Source: a bacterium (GTDB taxonomy: Bacteria; AUK180). From it: a stretch of DNA of 13,338 nt. Shown here one piece after another: positions 1 through 13,338 of this stretch (position 1 is its first letter; every line of letters begins with the position of its first letter). The notes below the pieces were generated by a model, which searched no databases, had not been told where the DNA came from, and saw only the letters and a program-made list of their open reading frames with translations. The DNA lies in assembly GCA_030622125.1 (NCBI GenBank), contig JAUXGM010000054.1, positions 1 through 13,338 of the forward strand, in the 5' to 3' direction. A program made the translations under genes and the position numbers.

Positions 1-1199
1 ACCTCTAACCTTTCACTTTCTATTTTTTTCTTTTCTTTGTCAATTGTCAATTGTCCATTGTCCATTTCTTTATTGCCTCCAACCTCTTCTTCTTTCTCTT
101 CACTATTCACTATTTTTTTTCCGGATACTTCTTTTTTCTTTTCATTGTCAATTGTCAATTGTCCATTGTCCATTTCTTTATTGCCTCCAACCTCTTCTTT
201 CTCTGTTCCTTTTTTACTTTTCTTCTGTGCCTTTGATATTGCCAAAACAATTATAATTACAATAACAAATACTCCACCAGCGATTCCACCAATTTTGAGA
301 TAAAGAAAAGTTTTTTCTTTTTTAATATTCTCTAACTGTTTTTCATATTGTGTAATATCTTTGTCTTTAAACTTTTTCTTTATTTCGTAAATCAGTTCAT
401 CTGCTTTTTTAAGATTTTTTGATTTTAAAGCAAGCCCTAACCCGATAATTCTTAGTTTGTATTCATTTTTCAACTGAAGTTCTTTTACAATTTTTTTAAA
501 TCGATCTTCTTGAACACCTGCATTAATTGCTTTATTTAGGAAAATGATTTTATCACCGGATGATTCCAATTGTTTAACTGCATCTAAAAAATATTCCACA
601 ATTATTTCCCGAATAGGAGTATTTTCTTTTTCTATTGCTTTTTTGTATCCTTCGCTCAGATATTTAATGCCCTGATCCAAATCTTTGTTAAGAATATATA
701 TTTTCCCGAGATAATACAAAAGCATTGGATTTTCATTCCATTTTCTTTCTTTCTGTATCTCATTCACGGCTTCATCAAATCTGCCTAATTTGACTAATAT
801 AAAGTATTTTAATCCGATAAGATTATTTTTTTGAAGGATATCTTTTGTATTTTTTAAACCGATTTTGCATTTTTTAAGTGCGGTTTCATAATCAGCTTTT
901 TCAATATATATTTTTGTATATGTCTCATAATTAATATATTTCCTTGCATGATAACTCTTATTTTTTTCTAATTTATCTAAGTAAAAAAGAGCATCATCAT
1001 ATTTTTTTTGTTCAAAGAAAGAGCCAATAAGATAAGGATATAGATTATATAAAAATGGAGTTTTTTTAATCTCTTTTCTGAAGATCAATTCGGACTTTTC
1101 ATATTCGCCGTTCTTAAAATAATTCATTCCATCTTTAATTGTTTCGCCATAAGTGAAAATACCCACCAATAAAAATAATATCAGCATTTTTACTTTCAT
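1..1199 (-). CDS. TPR-containing single-pass membrane protein with repeat-built cytoplasmic tail (3' end beyond window)
   Basis: The reading frame is open from ATG at 1199 to the left edge: 399 full codons with no stop, so the gene continues outside the window. Residues 1-18 form a signal peptide (hydrophobic run LILFLLVGIF, likely cleavage after TYG). Residues about 20-290 are helical with TPR-like pairs, e.g. GMNYFKNGEYEKSELIF, LVKLGRFDEAVNEI and LGKIYILNKDLDQGIKYL. A transmembrane helix lies at about 299-322 (IGGIAGGVFVIVIIIVLAI) and is followed by a lysine-rich stop-transfer stretch. The predicted topology is therefore TPRs in the periplasm and the tail in the cytoplasm. The tail (from about 331) is charged and contains two near-identical 36-residue units that include MDNGQLTIDN, encoded by heptanucleotide DNA repeats. 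ATG 1199 was chosen for the signal peptide and the promoter 5 nt upstream. There is no Shine-Dalgarno sequence. The specific function is unknown; it may assemble an envelope complex, which is inference. Confidence 0.88.
   Translation of the reverse strand, partial: MKVKMLILFLLVGIFTYGETIKDGMNYFKNGEYEKSELIFRKEIKKTPFLYNLYPYLIGSFFEQKKYDDALFYLDKLEKNKSYHARKYINYETYTKIYIEKADYETALKKCKIGLKNTKDILQKNNLIGLKYFILVKLGRFDEAVNEIQKERKWNENPMLLYYLGKIYILNKDLDQGIKYLSEGYKKAIEKENTPIREIIVEYFLDAVKQLESSGDKIIFLNKAINAGVQEDRFKKIVKELQLKNEYKLRIIGLGLALKSKNLKKADELIYEIKKKFKDKDITQYEKQLENIKKEKTFLYLKIGGIAGGVFVIVIIIVLAISKAQKKSKKGTEKEEVGGNKEMDNGQLTIDNEKKKEVSGKKIVNSEEKEEEVGGNKEMDNGQLTIDKEKKKIESERLE
41..68. repeat. Heptanucleotide repeat cluster (CAATTGT family), copy 1
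   Basis: Four consecutive 7-mers are CAATTGT, CAATTGT, CCATTGT and CCATTTC. They resemble the short tandem heptamer repeats dispersed in intergenic DNA of many cyanobacteria and other bacteria (established knowledge). Here they are read in frame, on the minus strand, as part of the tail of the TPR membrane protein. Three heptamers equal seven codons. Confidence 0.85.
101..114. repeat. Heptanucleotide tandem, second family (CACTATT x2)
   Basis: Two tandem copies of CACTATT lie between the two CAATTGT-type clusters. This is a different 7-mer family, also typical of dispersed bacterial heptamer repeats. On the minus strand it encodes the IVNSEE part of the 36-residue repeat unit. Confidence 0.7.
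149..176. repeat. Heptanucleotide repeat cluster (CAATTGT family), copy 2
   Basis: The same four 7-mers occur in the same order as at 41-68 (CAATTGT, CAATTGT, CCATTGT, CCATTTC), without any difference. The cluster lies inside the second 108-bp unit. Confidence 0.85.
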
Positions 1200-1204
1200 A
1201 TTTA

Positions 1205-1233
1205 ATTATAATATAAAATTCAAAAAAAATCAA
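1205..1233 (-). promoter_or_regulatory. Sigma70-type promoter placed for a leaderless transcript of the TPR gene
   Basis: Reading the minus strand, the -35 box is TTGATT (1233-1228), followed by a 17-bp spacer and the consensus -10 TATAAT (1210-1205). Only 5 nt separate the -10 from the ATG at 1199, so transcription is predicted to begin at or beside the start codon. No Shine-Dalgarno sequence is present. Confidence 0.75.
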
Positions 1234-1269
1234 CTTATTAAAAAAAAAACTTGAATTTGATTTTTTTTG
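1221..1269. repeat. Perfect 13-bp inverted repeat spanning both divergent -35 boxes
   Basis: CAAAAAAAATCAA at 1221-1233 and its exact reverse complement at 1257-1269 are separated by 23 bp. Each arm contains the -35 element and the start of the spacer of one of the two divergent promoters (TPR gene and lysS operon). It could be a symmetric operator, a curved A-tract/UP-like region, or a by-product of two similar promoters placed back to back. Confidence 0.7.
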
Positions 1270-1285
1270 GATTTTTATGTAAAAT
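1257..1285 (+). promoter_or_regulatory. Promoter of the lysS-dapF operon
   Basis: TTGATT (1257-1262), a 17-bp spacer and TAAAAT (1280-1285) fit a sigma70-type promoter. Transcription should start near 1292, giving a leader of about 18 nt that holds the Shine-Dalgarno sequence. That leader is too short for a riboswitch or T-box. Confidence 0.7.
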
Positions 1286-1296
1286 CAACTAATATT

Positions 1297-1302
1297 GAGG
1301 AG
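1297..1302 (+). promoter_or_regulatory. Shine-Dalgarno site deciding the lysS start
   Basis: GAGGAG lies 7 nt before the ATG at 1310. It rules out the in-frame upstream TTG at 1295, which overlaps the site itself, and favours ATG 1310. Confidence 0.85.
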
Positions 1303-1309
1303 TTATGAA

Positions 1310-2782
1310 ATGGATAATGAAAATCAGTTGATTCAAAATAGAATTCAAAAGTTAAATGAACTTGAAGATCAAGGAATCAACCCTTACCCGTATAAATGGG
1401 ATAAAAAAAATGAGATATCTAAGATAAGAGAACAGTTCTCAGATATTGAAAACGACCAACTAACGGATTATACGGCACAAATTGCCGGTCGGCTTATTTC
1501 AAAAAGAAGACAGGGGAAAGCCGGCTTTGCAAATATTAGGGATTTCAGTGATAAAATACAGCTTTACTTCAGACAAGACCGGCTTGGTGAAGAAAATTAT
1601 ACATTATTTAAAAAAACCGATATAGGGGATTTTATAGGAATTATTGGTAAAATATTTAAAACAAGAACAGGTGAAATAACGGTGCTTGTTGAAAAAATGA
1701 CAATACTTTCAAAATCTATACGGCCGCTTCCTGAAAAATGGCATGGTCTTCAAGATATAGAACTTCGTTACAGAAAAAGATATCTTGATCTTATATCCAA
1801 TTCCGATACTATGGATATATTTGTAAAGAGAACGAAAATAATAAAAGCGATTAGAGAATTTTTAGATAAAAAAAGATTTATTGAGGTAGAAACCCCGATA
1901 CTTCAAATAATTCCCGGCGGTGCAGATGCAAAGCCGTTTGTAACACATCATAATGCTCTTGATATTGATCTTTATATGAGGATAGCGCCCGAACTTTATT
2001 TAAAAAGATTGATCATCGGTGGATTTGAAAGGGTATATGAACTTAACCGAAATTTTAGAAATGAAGGAATGGATAGAGAACATAATCCCGAATTTACAAT
2101 GCTTGAAACCTATGCTGCTTATTGGGACTACAATGATGTGATGGATTTTGTTGAAGATATGATCAAATATATTATTGATAATATTTTTAATGGCAGTTTG
2201 ACTGTGGAAAGGAGTGATAATAAATTTGATTTTACCTTTCCATTTAAGAGATTATCAATGGTTGATACAATAAATAAAAAGCTTGGAAAAAATATTACAA
2301 CTATGAGTGAAAGTGAATTAATAAATGAAGTAGTAAAGGTGGGAAAAGAAAAACCGGTCTCAAAGGGGAAGGCGATTGAAAAGCTTTTTGAACACTATGT
2401 GGAACCGGATCTATTTGAACCTGTATTTGTTATTGATTTTCCTAAGGAATCCTCTCCATTAACAAAAGACCACCGTGAGATAAAGGGTTTTGTAGAAAGA
2501 TTTGAACTTTATATTGGCGGCATGGAGATTGCAAATGCATACTCCGAATTAAATAATCCGATTGAACAAAAAAAGCGTTTCTTGATGCAAGAGAAATTCA
2601 GAGAAAAAGGTGATGATGAAGCACAAAGAATGGATAGTGATTTTGTAGAAGCACTGGAATATGGAATGCCGCCAACAGGTGGCTTGGGAGTTGGAATAGA
2701 TAGACTGATCATGCTTCTGACCAATCAGAAGAGTATCAGGGATGTTATTCTATTTCCAACCATGAAAAAGGAGGCTAAATAA
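1310..2782 (+). CDS. lysS: Lysyl-tRNA synthetase, class II
   Basis: Charges tRNA-Lys with lysine in the cytoplasm using ATP. The 490 residues match the usual length for bacterial class II LysRS. The N-terminal OB-fold anticodon-binding domain covers about 50-135 (AQIAGRLISKRRQGKAGFANI). The catalytic core follows, with motif 1 around 175-198 (FIEVETPIL), motif 2 at about 249-262 (FRNEGMDREHNPEF) and motif 3 at about 457-467 (GGLGVGIDRL, ATP-binding Arg465). The linker RPLPEKWHGLQD and the APELYLKR segment are also typical of LysRS. No catalytic residue appears to be lost. It is the first gene of the operon, and its stop codon shares one base with the next gene's ATG (TAATG). The start at 1310 is set by GAGGAG. 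Confidence 0.97.
   Translation: MDNENQLIQNRIQKLNELEDQGINPYPYKWDKKNEISKIREQFSDIENDQLTDYTAQIAGRLISKRRQGKAGFANIRDFSDKIQLYFRQDRLGEENYTLFKKTDIGDFIGIIGKIFKTRTGEITVLVEKMTILSKSIRPLPEKWHGLQDIELRYRKRYLDLISNSDTMDIFVKRTKIIKAIREFLDKKRFIEVETPILQIIPGGADAKPFVTHHNALDIDLYMRIAPELYLKRLIIGGFERVYELNRNFRNEGMDREHNPEFTMLETYAAYWDYNDVMDFVEDMIKYIIDNIFNGSLTVERSDNKFDFTFPFKRLSMVDTINKKLGKNITTMSESELINEVVKVGKEKPVSKGKAIEKLFEHYVEPDLFEPVFVIDFPKESSPLTKDHREIKGFVERFELYIGGMEIANAYSELNNPIEQKKRFLMQEKFREKGDDEAQRMDSDFVEALEYGMPPTGGLGVGIDRLIMLLTNQKSIRDVILFPTMKKEAK
2768..2774 (+). promoter_or_regulatory. Strong Shine-Dalgarno site for the operon TPR gene, inside the lysS end
   Basis: AAGGAGG lies 7 nt before ATG 2782, within the last codons of lysS. 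This suggests efficient independent initiation as well as coupling at the TAATG junction. Confidence 0.85.
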
Positions 2783-3864
2783 TGCTATTTTCAAAGAAAT
2801 ATGAGGACCTTGTTGTCGAAGCAGTTGGTTATATACAGTTAAAACAATATCCAAAAGCAGAGGAATTATTGGTAAAAGCGATAAAAAGAAAAAAGAAAGT
2901 AAGTGATGCCTATGAATATCTGGGCATACTTTATATGAAAAATAAAAATGAAAAAAAAGCACAAAGTTGTCTTAAAACAGCAAACGAAATATCCGGTGGA
3001 TTATTAAAAACTATGTATTTTAATTCCGGTGTTGTTTTTTTTAAACGAGGGCTGATAGAGGATGCTTTTGAAGCATTTAAAAAAGTTCATTTGATGGATA
3101 ATGAAAATAAATTTGCAACATATTATCTGGGTGAAATACTTTCAAAAACAGGAAATTACATTGGGGCAATAGAAGAATTTCAAGAAATATTACAAAAATA
3201 TCCCGATGATATAAAAACATTAGAAAGTCTGGGTTACATCTACTTTGACTTAAAAATGACCGATAAAGGTATTGAGATCTTCCAAAAGTTAAGCAAGCTG
3301 GAACCAAAAAATGAAAGTTATCTTTTTAATATCGGATATCTATATAAATTCAAGGGAGAATATGATACCGCCGTTAAATATTTAAATGAAGCAATAGAAT
3401 TAAATCCGGATAACTATCTTCTCTATATCAATCTTGGAACACTATACAAAGAAAAAAAAGAATATTTAAAAGCGGAAGAGATGTTAAAAAAAGCAATAGA
3501 AAAATTTCCAATGGATTTTATGACCTACTATGATATGGGAAATATATTATTGGAAGAAAAAAAATATACGGAGGCTTTGAGTTATTTTCAAAAGGCATAC
3601 AATTTAAATGCCGATGATATCTATTCAATTAATAAAATAGCGCGTGTATATACCTTGTTGAACGATTATGAAAATGGAAGAAAATTTTATGAATTTGCGG
3701 TTACCAAAAATCCGGACGATCCATATAGTCATTTTAAATTTGCAGAATATCTTTTAAAAGTAAATGAAAAAGACGCTGCAATAAACGAATTTGAAAAGGT
3801 ACTTGCAATTGAACCGAATTATGTAATAGCAAAACTTAAATTGGAAGAACTTCGAGGGAAATGA
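2782..3864 (+). CDS. Cytoplasmic protein made almost entirely of about ten TPR repeats
   Basis: The 360 residues divide into about ten 34-residue helix pairs beginning near residues 8, 42, 76, 110, 144, 178, 212, 246, 280 and 314. The consensus positions are clear, e.g. LGTLYKEKKEYLKAEEMLKKAI and MGNILLEEKKYTEALSYFQKAY. There is no signal peptide, transmembrane helix or enzyme domain, so it is probably a soluble protein-binding scaffold. It overlaps lysS by 1 nt and mrdA by 4 nt (ATGA), which implies translational coupling to the wall-elongation genes. A role in recruiting or regulating PBP2/RodA is plausible from position only. It does not look like a duplicate of the membrane TPR protein at the left edge, since it lacks the signal peptide and the membrane anchor. 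Confidence 0.9.
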   Translation: MLFSKKYEDLVVEAVGYIQLKQYPKAEELLVKAIKRKKKVSDAYEYLGILYMKNKNEKKAQSCLKTANEISGGLLKTMYFNSGVVFFKRGLIEDAFEAFKKVHLMDNENKFATYYLGEILSKTGNYIGAIEEFQEILQKYPDDIKTLESLGYIYFDLKMTDKGIEIFQKLSKLEPKNESYLFNIGYLYKFKGEYDTAVKYLNEAIELNPDNYLLYINLGTLYKEKKEYLKAEEMLKKAIEKFPMDFMTYYDMGNILLEEKKYTEALSYFQKAYNLNADDIYSINKIARVYTLLNDYENGRKFYEFAVTKNPDDPYSHFKFAEYLLKVNEKDAAINEFEKVLAIEPNYVIAKLKLEELRGK

Positions 3865-7600: not shown

Positions 7601-8388
7601 AATTTAAAAAATATTCAGGCGCCGGTAATGATTTTATTATGATCAATAATTATACCGATAAGCATGGTTTGGATTATAATAAACTTGCCAAAAAAATGTG
7701 CCCGAGAGGGCTTTCTGTTGGTGCCGACGGTTTAATTGTAATTGAACCGGCGAATAATCATGATTTCAAGATGAGATACTTTAATTCAGATGGCAGTGAG
7801 GCGGAAATGTGCGGAAATGGAGGTAGGTGTGTTTCAATGTTCGCATATCGTGAAAAAATAGTTGGCAAGCAAATGACCTTTGAAACTATCGCAGGCATCT
7901 ACTCATCGGAGATAATCAATGATAATGTACGATTAAAAATGCTTCCACCCCAAAAATGGACGAAATATATCATTAAATATAAAAGTGATAATATTGCAGG
8001 AACATTTTTGAATACCGGTGTTCCGCATTTTGTTACATTTTATTGTTCGGATGAGGACATAGTTCCCCTCGGAAAATTTATAAGATTTCATAAATATTTT
8101 AGTCCCGAAGGAACAAATGTTGATTTTGTAAAGATTATAGATAATCACAAATTAAAGATAAGAACTTATGAGAGAGGAGTTGAAAATGAAACCCTTGCCT
8201 GTGGTACCGGATCCGTTGCTTCCGCAGTTGTTGCCATAGTAAATGGTTCTGTGCACTCACCGGTAGATATCGTTACAAAAAGTGGAATTATATTAACGGT
8301 TGAAGTGGAATTTTCCAATGATAAAATTCGTTCTCTTTATTTAACCGGTGATGCCCGTGAGGTATATTGTGGAAAGTTTAAAGTCTGA
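7585..8388 (+). CDS. dapF: Diaminopimelate epimerase
   Basis: Cofactor-independent racemase that converts L,L-diaminopimelate to meso-diaminopimelate, the cross-linking residue of Gram-negative peptidoglycan and the last intermediate before lysine. The 267 residues match the family. Visible signatures are the N-terminal KYSGAGNDF (9-17), the first catalytic cysteine in EMCGNGGRC (C76) preceded by NSDGSEA, and the second in ETLACGTGS (C206). Both catalytic Cys residues are present, so the enzyme should be active. It overlaps the methyltransferase gene by 16 bp and is the last gene of the operon. Its 3' end overlaps the convergent gene by 11 bp, with no intergenic terminator. Its presence beside mrdA and rodA links precursor supply to wall growth. 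Confidence 0.97.
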   Translation: MERALKFKKYSGAGNDFIMINNYTDKHGLDYNKLAKKMCPRGLSVGADGLIVIEPANNHDFKMRYFNSDGSEAEMCGNGGRCVSMFAYREKIVGKQMTFETIAGIYSSEIINDNVRLKMLPPQKWTKYIIKYKSDNIAGTFLNTGVPHFVTFYCSDEDIVPLGKFIRFHKYFSPEGTNVDFVKIIDNHKLKIRTYERGVENETLACGTGSVASAVVAIVNGSVHSPVDIVTKSGIILTVEVEFSNDKIRSLYLTGDAREVYCGKFKV

Positions 8389-10114
8389 AATTTGATAGTT
8401 CTTCTTTTTTTAAGCGGAAGATGAAATGATCTCTTCTCGAATGAAGTTGAACTATTTTTTTTAGTTGTCCTGAGAAGGTCTTTGAAAAAAAGTATCCGGT
8501 TAATTTATCAATTGAAATATTTTTAGGCTTCATTACAACGAAGGTATTTGGTATAAATATTTTTTTATCCTGTTTATAGATAATGAATTGCGGTAGGGTT
8601 AAACCACCTTCTATTTTTAAGGCAATACAATTTTTTAAAAGCGGTTGATTTAGTCTTAAAGAGATATGTTCCTTATTAGAAGAATGAATATTTTTAATTT
8701 CCAAACAATGGAAATCAAAGTCATCAAAAGAAGCAAAGAAAAATTCATCGGGTCTTTTTTCAATTGGAATAAATTCAACTATTTTACCGAGTGTTAAATT
8801 TTTCTTTTTAATAAAAAACTCTTTTTCACTCAGGTTTTTTCTCATTTTACTAAATTTTTTTAATTTTTTTCTGTAAAGATATTCATCCTTGATCTCTTTT
8901 TCCCCGAGTTCTTTTTCTTTGTTTCCGGATAATCTTTCAATCGGAATAGAATAGAGAAGTTTTACGCTAATTCTTCTCATAACTCCTACTGCTCTTTTTT
9001 TAAATTCTTTAAGGAATCTTTCACTTTTCAAATAATAGAAAAGATAACCGGGATGAATATTCCCTGCCCTTATTATGAAAAGTCCTCTATCAACTATTAA
9101 TTTTCTATCTTCTTTCAATGCTAAACCAATATTCCCGCCACGGAAAAATGAAGAAATTATAATATCATTTCCCCTGACCATATTTGCTTTTGGGATATCT
9201 TCACTATCTTTCTTCATTATTTTTTCCACTTTTAGATGCTGACTTGACAAATTGGAATTTTTGATTTGAGCATCTTTAAATGAATGAGGTGATAATATTT
9301 TAGCAAAATCACCTAAGGCATTTTTCTTCCCTATTATATCGGGATACCAAAACTTATCTACAAAAGAATTTTGTTTAATATCTTTAATAAAGTTCGCCCC
9401 TTTATCCATTTCAAAGAATTCAAAACTTGTCTTCTCATTCGGATATTTTCCTTTTAGAATAATAATGTTTTGATTCATCAAAGACATAGAAGTTCTTGTT
9501 GAAAAATAAAGATATTCAACAGAGAAATTTTTCAGGATATAATTTCTTTCCTCTTTAAATTTATCTAAAAGAAAAAAATCCCTTCTTGTAAAGATCAATA
9601 TCTTGCCTCTATCTTTAATTATTTTTTTTATCTTGCTGAAATACCTCATTATATTTTCAATGTTGTAAGGAAATTCAAGAATGACTTTATCAAACTTTTC
9701 ATTAAATCTCTGTTCAAGAAATAATTTATTATGAAAATTATGGGATGGATACAATTTTTTTAACAGAAATATTTCATCTTTTGTGCTGTTGTGAAGCCAG
9801 ATGTGGCTTTTTGTTTTTGGTAATTCCAGTAATTTTTTTAAAATAAAACTTTGTTTTTGTAATATAAATGTAAAACTTTTATTTCCTTTTTTTGAAAAGA
9901 GAAAATCATCAAGAATATTGCTGTAATTTTTATATCTTATTCTTTCAAAAATAGGGAAATTGTGCAAAAAAATATCTTCACCTACCTTTATATGCAAATG
10001 GGTATACTCTAATATTTCAAAGATATTATCAGATAATATTGTGTCAATTTTTTGCGAACTTATCCTTCTTCTTTTTCCTTCAAGTGCAAGGTATAATAGA
10101 TATGATTTTCTCAT
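8378..10114 (-). CDS. Degenerate N6-adenine methyltransferase-like domain fused to HsdS-like target-recognition domains
   Basis: The 578 residues read as two parts. Residues about 70-225 follow the layout of HsdM-type N6-adenine DNA methyltransferases: a FILQKQSFILKKLLEL helix, a strand (SHIWL), then FDKVILEFPY (141-150) at the place of the catalytic FDxIxxNPPY motif, KKIIKDRGKILIFTRRDF (163-180), and a closing strand set at about 195-222. The catalytic NPPY is replaced by EFPY and no glycine-rich SAM motif I is visible, so catalysis looks lost. Residues about 265-395 resemble a type I specificity-subunit target-recognition domain: LGDFAKILS, then VRGNDIIISSFFRGGNIGLA, then IHPGYLFYYLKSERFLKEF and the end LLYSIPIERL. 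A charged helical segment (397-440) precedes a second TRD-like half (442-578) starting LGKIVEFIP. No endonuclease domain is visible, nor any hsdR or active hsdM nearby. The start at ATG 10114 is supported by a promoter 5 nt upstream. The gene is certain; the function is inferred. Confidence 0.7.
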   Translation of the reverse strand: MRKSYLLYLALEGKRRRISSQKIDTILSDNIFEILEYTHLHIKVGEDIFLHNFPIFERIRYKNYSNILDDFLFSKKGNKSFTFILQKQSFILKKLLELPKTKSHIWLHNSTKDEIFLLKKLYPSHNFHNKLFLEQRFNEKFDKVILEFPYNIENIMRYFSKIKKIIKDRGKILIFTRRDFFLLDKFKEERNYILKNFSVEYLYFSTRTSMSLMNQNIIILKGKYPNEKTSFEFFEMDKGANFIKDIKQNSFVDKFWYPDIIGKKNALGDFAKILSPHSFKDAQIKNSNLSSQHLKVEKIMKKDSEDIPKANMVRGNDIIISSFFRGGNIGLALKEDRKLIVDRGLFIIRAGNIHPGYLFYYLKSERFLKEFKKRAVGVMRRISVKLLYSIPIERLSGNKEKELGEKEIKDEYLYRKKLKKFSKMRKNLSEKEFFIKKKNLTLGKIVEFIPIEKRPDEFFFASFDDFDFHCLEIKNIHSSNKEHISLRLNQPLLKNCIALKIEGGLTLPQFIIYKQDKKIFIPNTFVVMKPKNISIDKLTGYFFSKTFSGQLKKIVQLHSRRDHFIFRLKKEELSNFRL

Positions 10115-10119
10115 AATGA

Positions 10120-10148
10120 ATTATAATACATTTTTTTACAAAATGCAA
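10120..10148 (-). promoter_or_regulatory. Sigma70-type promoter placed for a leaderless transcript of the HsdS-like gene
   Basis: On the minus strand the -35 is TTGCAT (10148-10143), followed by a 17-bp spacer and TATAAT (10125-10120). The -10 is exactly 5 nt from ATG 10114, as in the other minus-strand gene, and both share the 10-mer TATTATAATT. No Shine-Dalgarno sequence is present. Confidence 0.75.
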
Positions 10149-10185
10149 ATTCCATTACTTTTTTACGGTAGTATCAATCAAAAAC

Positions 10186-10214
10186 TTGACAAATGAAAAA
10201 AAAAAAAATATAAT
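10186..10214 (+). promoter_or_regulatory. Perfect-consensus promoter of the secreted beta-helix protein gene
   Basis: TTGACA (10186-10191), a 17-bp spacer that is mostly adenines, and TATAAT (10209-10214) match the sigma70 consensus at every base. Transcription should start near 10221, giving a leader of about 20 nt. This predicts strong housekeeping expression. Confidence 0.88.
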
Positions 10215-10230
10215 ACAATATAAAGTTTTT

Positions 10231-10235
10231 GGAGG
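10231..10235 (+). promoter_or_regulatory. Shine-Dalgarno site for the secreted protein gene
   Basis: GGAGG lies 5 nt before ATG 10241 and fixes that start, which also begins a good signal peptide. Confidence 0.88.
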
Positions 10236-10240
10236 AAATT

Positions 10241-13200
10241 ATGAAAAGAGGCTTTTTGATTTCACTTGGGATCATTGTTTTGAGTGCATTTTTATTTATT
10301 AACAGTAAGAGTGCGGTGCTTGATAAGAATTTAAACACAAGCAAGAGCGACAAGATAAAAGAGATTGTAGAGAAACTGAAAAATAAAAATGTAGCAAAAC
10401 CCGAAGGATATTTAAAGTCGATTCTTGATAAAAAAAAGAAAATAGATAATTCAGAAAAGCAGAAGGAGATAGAAAATCTTAAAAAAGATGTAAATAATGT
10501 CTTTAATAAATTGAGAAACGAATATTCAACTCAGAAAGTTAAAATACAATTAGAGCCGGAAGCAGAAATAAAGGATATTAATGATGTTAAAGAATTAATG
10601 GAAGATAAGAAGAAAAAATTTGATATTCAGCAGAATGAGAATACAAGATTAAAGAGCAGCGCGAAAGCACTTCTTACTGTATATCAGGAAGATTTTAATT
10701 CAGATACCGGAAATTATACTATTACCGATTTATCTTCATCTGCTACCGGTGAAAGACCGATATACTGGCATATTGATTCCTATAATGCTTATGAAGGCAA
10801 TTCATGGTGGTGTGGTATTGATGATTCCGATTATTTAATGACTTCTCCTGGTTACGGGAATTTTTGGGCACAGTCCCTTGTTCATAAGATTAATCTTACT
10901 GATGTAACCATACCCTGCACATTGTCATTTATGTTAAAATATGAAATTGAGAACTGGACTGCTGATTTCGGTTACGTTGACGTTTTAGATGAAGATTTCA
11001 ATTTATTAGATGAATTGATAACGAACCTCACAGGAACAAGTGATTGGCAAAAAGTGAAGCTTTCATTAACACCTTATAATGGACGGATTATTTATTTAAG
11101 ATTCAGATTCGGTTCAAATTTTATTTTTTCTGATGAGGATGGATACCTGGGAGTTATGGATCTAAATGGTGCAATGTATATAGATAATATAAAGGTATAT
11201 GGAGGCGGAAAGACATTTTTTGAAGATGATTGTGAGATGGGCAATCAGGACTGGATAATAAATCCTTCTGCCGGTCAGGTATGGGAAAGGACAGATCAAG
11301 GCGGTGGAAATTATGATATGTATGTAATGTATTCCAGTACCATTCCCGGCGTTTACTCATCAATGGAATCGCCTGCTATTGATTTATCCGGATATAATCT
11401 CTATGAAGTAGGTTGGCTCTCTTATGATTTGAATTGTAATATTGATGGAATGCTAATGGGAGATCTCTATACATTGTATATTTCATCTGATGGTGGAACA
11501 AATTGGAATAAGGTTCAGGAATTTTTCTTCCCAGTTAGTGGTTTGCAAAATATTGATGTCCGGAATTATGTCGGATATTCTGATGTGAGATTAAAATTCG
11601 TATTCAAAGCAAACGGTGACAGTTTTGCTGGTGGGGGACCTAATCCAGGAGTAAATGTTGATAATATACAAATAGATGTTGACAGGGTACCCGCACCGCC
11701 TAAGAACTTAACTGTAAGTAAAGTGCTTGGTGATAATACGCAACTATTTTTAAAATGGGATAAGAATAAAGAGTCGGATATTGCAGGATATAATGCGTAT
11801 AGAGGTAATAATTTAGGTGGTCCTTATCCTACAAAATTGAATACAACCGGATTGATCACGGATAATTTTTATACTGATACAGGTTTAACTCCCGGCACAA
11901 CATATTATTATGTTGTTACCGCAGTTGATAATGATCCAAATGAGAGTGCATATTCTAATGAGGCAATGGGACTTACCGATTCTGTTGCACCTGCCTGCTT
12001 ATATGGTGCAATACTTTCAGATACAACCTGGTCTTCTGATCAAACTGTTTGTGGCGATATTTACATTGCAGAGAGTGCAACCTTAACAATTGCCCCTGGC
12101 GTTTCTGTAACTGTAAATGCAAATACTGATTTGAATAATATCGGTGTTGACCCTATTAGGGTTGAATTTTTATGTGATGGTAATATAATCGCATCCGGAA
12201 CCTCAGGAAATACAATTGTGTTTATCTCGGATTCCGGTGGATTTTTCGATTGGCGTGGGATTTTGCTATCGGATTTAATAGATACCTCTATTACTAAATT
12301 CGATTGGTGTTCAATATCAAATGCCGTATCCGGATTACTTCTCAATGGTGTAAATGGTCTTAATCTAAACAATGTAACCTTTACGGATAATAATCTCGGT
12401 ATATTATGCTTTAACAATAATAGTGTTTCAATTATTGACTCTAATCTTTCTTCAAGTCTAGGGCAGGCTATTTATAATTCCGGTGATTTAGTTTTGAATA
12501 TAGATAATACCATTTTCCGGAGTAATTCAAATGCTGGAATTTATTCTAATATGGGAGTTAACAATTACACAATTCAGTATTCAACATTTGATAACAATGA
12601 TTTAAGTATTTATTTTGAAAATGCTCTGTTCCCATTTGGCAGCACTTCAAATGACTTTAATATTTCTTATACAAAATTTATTAATAATTCTAATGGTGGT
12701 ATCTATGGCACTGAGAGTGATTGTAATTTATCAATTAATAATTGTTTGTTTGATTCCAATGATTTAGGAATTTATACAGCAACGGGGAAATCAAATTATG
12801 ATATTTCATACAGCACATTTATAAATAATAGTACTGTGCATTTAGGAGCTCAATCATCCGGAGATAAAAACATTTCTAACTGTTACTTTGATAATTCTGA
12901 TCATGGGATATATATTATTTTAAGTTCGAATGTTGAGATTAAAAATTCTGAAATATACAATTGTTTTTGGCATGCAATATATTTCGAGCAAAATTCAGAT
13001 GTAGTTATAGATAATGTGGTTATTAATACAGCTGCTTGGGGGATTTATGTTGATGAAAGTGATAATATTGAGATTAAGAATTCACAAATTTATAATTGTA
13101 ATAATGATGGAATTTACTTCTGGGACCTTTCAGAAAGTGGAATATTAAATAATGTAACTGTTTCGACTGCTCCAATAGGAATTGAAATAATGAATCCTGA

Positions 13201-13338
13201 CGCTCTTGATAATCTTGACATATCAAATTCTAAATTTAGAAATTGTACCAATATGGGACTATACATTACAGATGTAAAGCAACTTAATTTAACGGATTCT
13301 ACGATTGAGAATAATAATATCGGACTATTTCAAAATAG
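10241..13338 (+). CDS. Large secreted multidomain protein: two beta-sandwich domains, FN3 and right-handed beta-helix (3' end beyond window)
   Basis: The frame is open for 1032 codons to the right edge; the final TAG bases are out of frame. Domain order: signal peptide 1-25 (FLISLGIIVLSAFLFI, no lipobox cysteine); a Lys/Glu-rich helical, probably coiled-coil stalk at about 27-140; a first jelly-roll-like domain at 145-321 (EDFNSDTGNYT ... NGAMYIDNIKVYGG), of the MAM/choice-of-anchor or immune-inhibitor-A type; a second related domain at 325-482 (FEDDCEMGNQDWII ... VNVDNIQIDV); a fibronectin III module at 484-577 (LFLKWDKNKESDIAGYNAYR, GTTYYYVVTAVD); then a beta-helix cap (ATLTIAPGVSVTV, 613-625) and parallel beta-helix coils from about 640 to the end, marked by recurring GIY turns about 22-26 residues apart. 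The coils are rich in Asn and Ser. The protein is probably exported to the cell surface or medium as a binder, adhesin or polysaccharide-acting protein. No catalytic site is recognised, and any C-terminal sorting domain lies outside the window. Confidence 0.9.
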   Translation, partial: MKRGFLISLGIIVLSAFLFINSKSAVLDKNLNTSKSDKIKEIVEKLKNKNVAKPEGYLKSILDKKKKIDNSEKQKEIENLKKDVNNVFNKLRNEYSTQKVKIQLEPEAEIKDINDVKELMEDKKKKFDIQQNENTRLKSSAKALLTVYQEDFNSDTGNYTITDLSSSATGERPIYWHIDSYNAYEGNSWWCGIDDSDYLMTSPGYGNFWAQSLVHKINLTDVTIPCTLSFMLKYEIENWTADFGYVDVLDEDFNLLDELITNLTGTSDWQKVKLSLTPYNGRIIYLRFRFGSNFIFSDEDGYLGVMDLNGAMYIDNIKVYGGGKTFFEDDCEMGNQDWIINPSAGQVWERTDQGGGNYDMYVMYSSTIPGVYSSMESPAIDLSGYNLYEVGWLSYDLNCNIDGMLMGDLYTLYISSDGGTNWNKVQEFFFPVSGLQNIDVRNYVGYSDVRLKFVFKANGDSFAGGGPNPGVNVDNIQIDVDRVPAPPKNLTVSKVLGDNTQLFLKWDKNKESDIAGYNAYRGNNLGGPYPTKLNTTGLITDNFYTDTGLTPGTTYYYVVTAVDNDPNESAYSNEAMGLTDSVAPACLYGAILSDTTWSSDQTVCGDIYIAESATLTIAPGVSVTVNANTDLNNIGVDPIRVEFLCDGNIIASGTSGNTIVFISDSGGFFDWRGILLSDLIDTSITKFDWCSISNAVSGLLLNGVNGLNLNNVTFTDNNLGILCFNNNSVSIIDSNLSSSLGQAIYNSGDLVLNIDNTIFRSNSNAGIYSNMGVNNYTIQYSTFDNNDLSIYFENALFPFGSTSNDFNISYTKFINNSNGGIYGTESDCNLSINNCLFDSNDLGIYTATGKSNYDISYSTFINNSTVHLGAQSSGDKNISNCYFDNSDHGIYIILSSNVEIKNSEIYNCFWHAIYFEQNSDVVIDNVVINTAAWGIYVDESDNIEIKNSQIYNCNNDGIYFWDLSESGILNNVTVSTAPIGIEIMNPDALDNLDISNSKFRNCTNMGLYITDVKQLNLTDSTIENNNIGLFQN
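12935..13099 (+). repeat. Diverged two-coil repeat within the beta-helix
   Basis: Bases 12935-12964 and 13070-13099 match at about 25 of 30 positions and encode EIKNSEIYNC and EIKNSQIYNC. The 135-bp offset is 45 residues, i.e. two beta-helix coils, suggesting growth of the helix by duplication of coil pairs. Confidence 0.6.

Follow-up and report, generated by a model that had tools for sequence, protein, structure and literature searches.

What becomes of a bacterial DNA methyltransferase gene that keeps its frame and loses its active site? The window that we analysed, 13,338 bases long, is the entire contig C31 of an assembly of 2.08 Mb (192 contigs, 96% complete). An initial annotation had described on it a pseudo-methyltransferase joined to HsdS-like recognition domains, with no restriction partner in view. 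The anatomy that it proposed is largely right, and its interpretation is supported in part. The open reading frame, its architecture, the loss of motifs and the lack of a linked partner are established. The most likely reading, to which we give a probability of about 0.5, is that the gene encodes a pseudoenzyme: a former single-chain N6-adenine methyltransferase that would now be a stand-alone sequence-specific DNA-binding protein.

8378..10114, minus strand: the whole open reading frame, 578 amino acids plus stop, a pseudo-gamma-class N6-adenine methyltransferase with two TRD-like domains
10120..10149, minus strand: possible promoter, TTTGCA-18-TATAAT, abutting the ATG; weak, 10/12 match

The intact frame of 578 codons is there, as claimed. 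It runs on the minus strand from 10114 down to 8378, a stretch in which the plus strand has many stops, and at the local base composition (stop chance 9.2% per codon) it would stay open by chance with a probability of about 4e-25. Codon usage agrees with this frame except in the first 60 codons, where the coding signal is no better than that of other frames. The predicted protein is basic (pI 9.9). The promoter, described initially as well formed, fares less well. A 10/12 match does lie on the minus strand, but it abuts the ATG, a position that would imply a leaderless mRNA, and the region has about as many promoter-like sites as chance predicts (17 found against 12.9 +/- 3.7 expected); the site is unremarkable.

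The gene sits between an operon (lysS - TPR - mrdA - rodA - trmH - dapF) and the gene of a secreted-looking beta-helix protein. It converges on dapF, overlapping it by 11 bases, and diverges from the beta-helix gene; the contig ends 3.2 kb upstream. The operon is kept in four relatives, in which something other than this gene follows dapF, and the open reading frame is therefore lineage-specific at this site. No tRNA or Rfam family was found within the window.

9365..10114, minus strand: degenerate methyltransferase domain, residues 1-250, from the PADLOC mad2 profile, colinear relatives and fold matches
9965..9994, minus strand: motif I slot, residues 41-50, HIKVGEDIFL (family D/E-PACGxGxFL), from the alignment; placed with less certainty than motif IV, at a model pLDDT of about 50
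9665..9694, minus strand: motif IV slot, residues 141-150, FDKVILEFPY (family FDxVIGNPPY), from alignment columns
9644..9664, minus strand: shortened loop after motif IV, residues 151-157, from the alignment

The first half of the protein goes back to a gamma-class N6-adenine DNA methyltransferase, with M.TaqI, M.BseCI, CamA and type IIG enzymes as relatives. We make this call because of a defence-system profile, three single-sequence matches and the fold. The PADLOC mad2 methyltransferase profile matches residues 137-210 (E 6.3e-7). The single-sequence matches are to N6-adenine methyltransferases that are colinear with the query: L094 over residues 123-392 (z 10.0), L114 over 64-488 (z 6.3) and L008 (z 6.6), all three spanning the end of the catalytic core as well as TRD1. 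Pfam and NCBIfam searches of the protein returned no family up to E 1, and a purpose-built methyltransferase profile scored the whole domain only marginally (4.8 bits; 5 of 996 shuffles as high). Direct alignment with the methyltransferase encoded on contig C170 of the same genome was not significant (z 2.2), and neither was the match to an HsdM-only profile, though its register was right.

The motif order I - IV - TRD is present in one chain, with the motif I slot placed at moderate confidence. The domain had been assigned to residues 60-230; it is complete from the N-terminus. Because it begins there, and because a TAA stands in frame three codons before the ATG, the chain lacks the N-terminal nuclease domain of type IIG and type IIB enzymes. 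The initial annotation had also treated the fusion to recognition domains as an oddity. In gamma-class enzymes (M.TaqI, M.BseCI, CamA, type IIG), core and TRD are ordinarily parts of one chain; what is odd here is the second TRD copy and the dead core.

How dead is the core? In an alignment of 49 rows, including 26 methyltransferases and 22 HsdS halves, with no residue pinned, FDKVILEFPY falls at the position of the catalytic motif, as had been claimed, and EFPY (147-150) falls on the NPPY column. All 26 methyltransferase rows have N-P-P there; the query alone deviates, with EFPY in place of the catalytic (N/D/S)PP(Y/F/W). Motif IV has lost G, N and the first P, and has kept F, D, P and Y. The claim that no SAM-binding glycine motif is visible stands in part: the probable slot has lost D/E, P, A and the second glycine of motif I, but keeps the first glycine (G45) together with F49 and L50. 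The acid of motif II is gone as well (GVDID has become SKKGN), so that neither the SAM-binding D/E-P-A-x-G-x-G motif nor an acidic motif II is present. The loop that follows motif IV is only 7 residues long, where the 26 relatives have 26-37, and the conserved P of the (I/V)xP strand is R177. Kept positions are F49, L50, F141, D142, P149, Y150, G170, R190, F204 and W256, and the query segment FYYLKSERF aligns on the conserved LNS segment of TRDs. Judged from the alignment columns, the placement of motif IV is secure and that of motifs I and II probable. A scaffold kept and a chemistry lost is the pattern that a pseudoenzyme shows, and SAM binding and catalysis have presumably both been lost. 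The initial view that the first half is methyltransferase-derived, with catalytic and SAM motifs gone, is thus borne out by the alignment columns and the profile matches.

Could the active site be divergent but still working, and the protein a SAM-dependent enzyme that acts on DNA or RNA? In favour are FD, PY and one glycine of motif I, all of them retained, and the well-preserved tail of the catalytic core (about residues 158-222). Against such activity stands the joint loss of the motif I D/E, P and second G, the motif II acid, the N of NPPY and the post-IV loop, in a family in which NPP is invariant in every one of the 26 relatives retrieved. We regard a surviving activity as highly improbable.

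The structure model is consistent with this anatomy. Guided by the alignment, AlphaFold gave pLDDT values of 85-92 in residues 140-200 and mostly 74-94 in 300-420; residues 45-130 and 431-533 are poor, and a single-sequence model was uninformative (pLDDT 35). Foldseek of the guided model found BrxX, CamA, M.TaqI and M.BseCI as the best solved matches (E 5e-9 to 1e-7). VIA-align aligned CamA over model residues 20-417 and matched HsdS-type TRDs with Z of about 10-12.6. The comparison with M.TaqI and HsdS that had been suggested at the outset thus matched both, but as consistency and not as independent proof, because the same families made up the alignment that guided the model. We rejected a BREX identity: the generic methyltransferase-TRD fold is all that the query and BrxX have in common, and the window has no BREX gene.

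8930..9331, minus strand: TRD1, residues 262-395, HsdS/M.TaqI-like target-recognition domain, from profiles and fold match
8810..8929, minus strand: long Lys/Glu-rich linker helix, residues 396-435, resembling the HsdS conserved helix (model helix 399-438)
8381..8809, minus strand: TRD2-like domain, residues 436-578, lacking the helix that closes a full HsdS, from the TRD profile

The second half reads as a DNA-recognition module. TRD1 is convincing, and well supported, as an HsdS-like target-recognition domain: the PADLOC HsdS (Specificity_I) profile matches residues 294-431 (E 5e-9), a TRD profile matches TRD1 (E 3e-10), and the model of TRD1 aligns with the PacII S subunit at VIA-align Z 12.6 (2.8 A over 135 residues). 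Single-sequence alignment with an HsdS (L057) continues through the linker. Of the two TRD-like halves claimed, the first therefore stands firmly; the second has weaker support, though more than chance would give. With the query left out of the TRD profile, residues 431-578 score 14.5 bits, which none of 999 shuffles reaches (best 12.9). TRD2 rests on the profile because pairwise similarity between TRD1 and TRD2 is not significant (z 1.5-1.8), and its region of the model has low confidence (pLDDT about 30-60). A second TRD is likely from the profile score. Of two TRDs split by conserved helices, as in HsdS, the query thus has TRD1 and the helix clearly, and TRD2 by profile with a low-confidence fold.

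Is this, then, the specificity part of a system encoded elsewhere? HsdS has the same TRD-helix-TRD arrangement. It differs from the query in working with HsdM and in having no part that derives from a methyltransferase, and the genome encodes no type I set. The earlier statement that no restriction partner is in view holds for the contig, which has neither HsdM nor HsdR. In the 96%-complete genome, Pfam found no other HsdS. The PADLOC HsdS profile matched one place (E 5.8e-8), of which the open reading frame itself is the expected source. No separate type I HsdR was found; the sole HSDR_N match lies within a type IIG-like frame on contig C124.

That frame and a gene on C170 encode other N6-adenine methyltransferases of the genome. 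On C170 (L002), an intact methyltransferase gene (539-2044, minus strand) lies directly after a gene of 265 aa without a Pfam match (2046-2843, minus strand), possibly an unrecognised type II restriction enzyme.

These two enzymes give some room to the proposal that the query is a specificity or regulatory subunit in trans, its dead half pairing with an active N6-adenine methyltransferase and its TRDs directing the pair. Precedents would be METTL14 with METTL3 and MTA9 with MTA1 (PMC9852454); in MTA1-MTA9 the inactive partner, whose NALW motif is eroded, belongs to the complex although it lacks SAM (PMC9852454). MTA9 and METTL14 resemble the query in that the methyltransferase fold is retained and the catalytic motif eroded. 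They are, however, obligate partners of the eukaryotic MT-A70 class and have no TRD, and the likeness would be an analogy only. Moreover, the query has no linked partner, the genome has no other HsdS and no separate HsdR, and the C170 and C124 proteins have C-terminal regions of their own and need no external specificity. By analogy, such a subunit is conceivable and quite unlikely.

A third alternative is that the gene is a late-stage relic of an orphan or restriction-modification methyltransferase, its function lost and its frame still unbroken. It is a single copy, missing from the dapF-downstream site of relatives, with a weak leaderless promoter and a first 60 codons indistinguishable as coding. 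It also has no ortholog in its family or phylum: none at E<1e-3 in 60 relatives or in the 7 genomes that represent this sparsely sampled phylum. Nor was there any at E<1e-3 in genomic contigs (two scans) or viral contigs (two scans), and 386 genomes held nothing convincing at E<=0.1. Phages gave no match up to E 10, and plasmids a single HsdS match at E 2. Two candidates were discarded: the match of TRD2 to a sequence from another phylum (L123, E 3.7e-4) is a chance one, lying antisense within a different gene and containing stops, and L124 is an ordinary HsdS.

Simple decay nevertheless explains the gene poorly. The initial annotation had set both the frame and the promoter against it; the open frame carries that argument, and the promoter does not. 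At a stop chance of 9% per codon, 578 codons are free of stops and frameshifts. We simulated neutral drift in 4000 copies that started from the query sequence, taking the catalytic losses as neutral substitutions in a dead gene. With 0.05 substitutions per site, the frame survived in 0.15% of the copies, and about one of the eight catalytic residues had changed; from 0.1 upwards it survived in none of the 4000. Drift far enough to change most catalytic residues would break so AT-rich a frame, and drift alone does not give 8 lost catalytic residues with an open frame. Structural positions, moreover, were selectively kept. On this simulation argument, which is not a dN/dS estimate, the protein probably lost its catalytic residues at a time when selection still maintained it for another role. 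We consider a mere relic unlikely. If it were one, it would be a record of orphan methyltransferase loss in a poorly sampled phylum.

A DNA-binding pseudoenzyme remains our preferred reading. Its Rossmann-like core would be retained as an inert scaffold that neither binds SAM nor methylates adenine; the C-terminal TRD1-helix-TRD2 would still bind a specific, probably two-part, DNA sequence; and the protein would act by occupying its sites, as a regulator, a roadblock or a site-masking protein. The decoy, roadblock and regulator functions proposed initially are likewise hypothetical.

Closest in build are CamA (577 aa) and M.BseCI (crystallised as a chain of 585 residues), both of which rank among the best fold matches: each is one chain of nearly the same length as the query, with an N-terminal gamma-class core followed by a TRD. 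Both methylate DNA and have motif I and NPPY intact, whereas the query has lost both motifs, has a catalytic part of about 250 residues against their 320, and adds a second TRD-like unit. Direct sequence comparison of the query with the two gave no significant match. M.TaqI and small type II N6-adenine methyltransferases (L008, L094) share the query's motif order, with a colinear methyltransferase tail and TRD; unlike the query, they have intact active-site motifs and one TRD. The gene next to L008 presumably resembles XamI-type restriction enzymes. In another genome, a 534-aa protein (L103, 1309-2913, plus strand) has an intact NPPF methyltransferase joined to an HsdS-like TRD; active-looking by its motifs and similar in layout to the query, it may be a useful comparison.

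Can an unlinked protein of this layout be regulatory? CamA, an orphan N6-adenine methyltransferase of Clostridioides difficile unlinked to a restriction enzyme, indicates that such a single-chain enzyme can be when active (PMC8187626). We found no bacterial methyltransferase pseudoenzyme of the query's kind in the open literature. We suggest tentatively, as a possibility short of even odds, that a bacterial N6-adenine methyltransferase has here been repurposed as a stable stand-alone DNA-binding pseudoenzyme, a regulator or site-masking protein with its own two-part reader, and so a counterpart of inactive methyltransferase subunits. If DNA binding without methylation is true, restriction-modification enzymes can become transcription-factor-like or site-masking proteins whose specificity is set by TRDs, and the query would be a natural TRD-based DNA binder.

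Other features of the window deserve mention. The secreted-looking protein encoded at 10229-13336 (plus strand) has fibronectin III and right-handed beta-helix (NosD-like) parts and runs off the contig end. Its likely ATG (10241) is preceded by GGAGG and, further ahead, by a perfect 12/12 sigma-70 promoter (TTGACA-17-TATAAT, 10186-10214, plus strand). This promoter lies near the start of the pseudo-methyltransferase gene and points away from it. At the other end of the window, a 68-nt direct repeat (24-91 and 132-199; 99% identical, spacing 108, with TTGTCAA/TTGTCCA units) lies within the 3' end of the TPR gene, where it gives the protein a repeated peptide, MDNGQLTID, close to the C-terminus.
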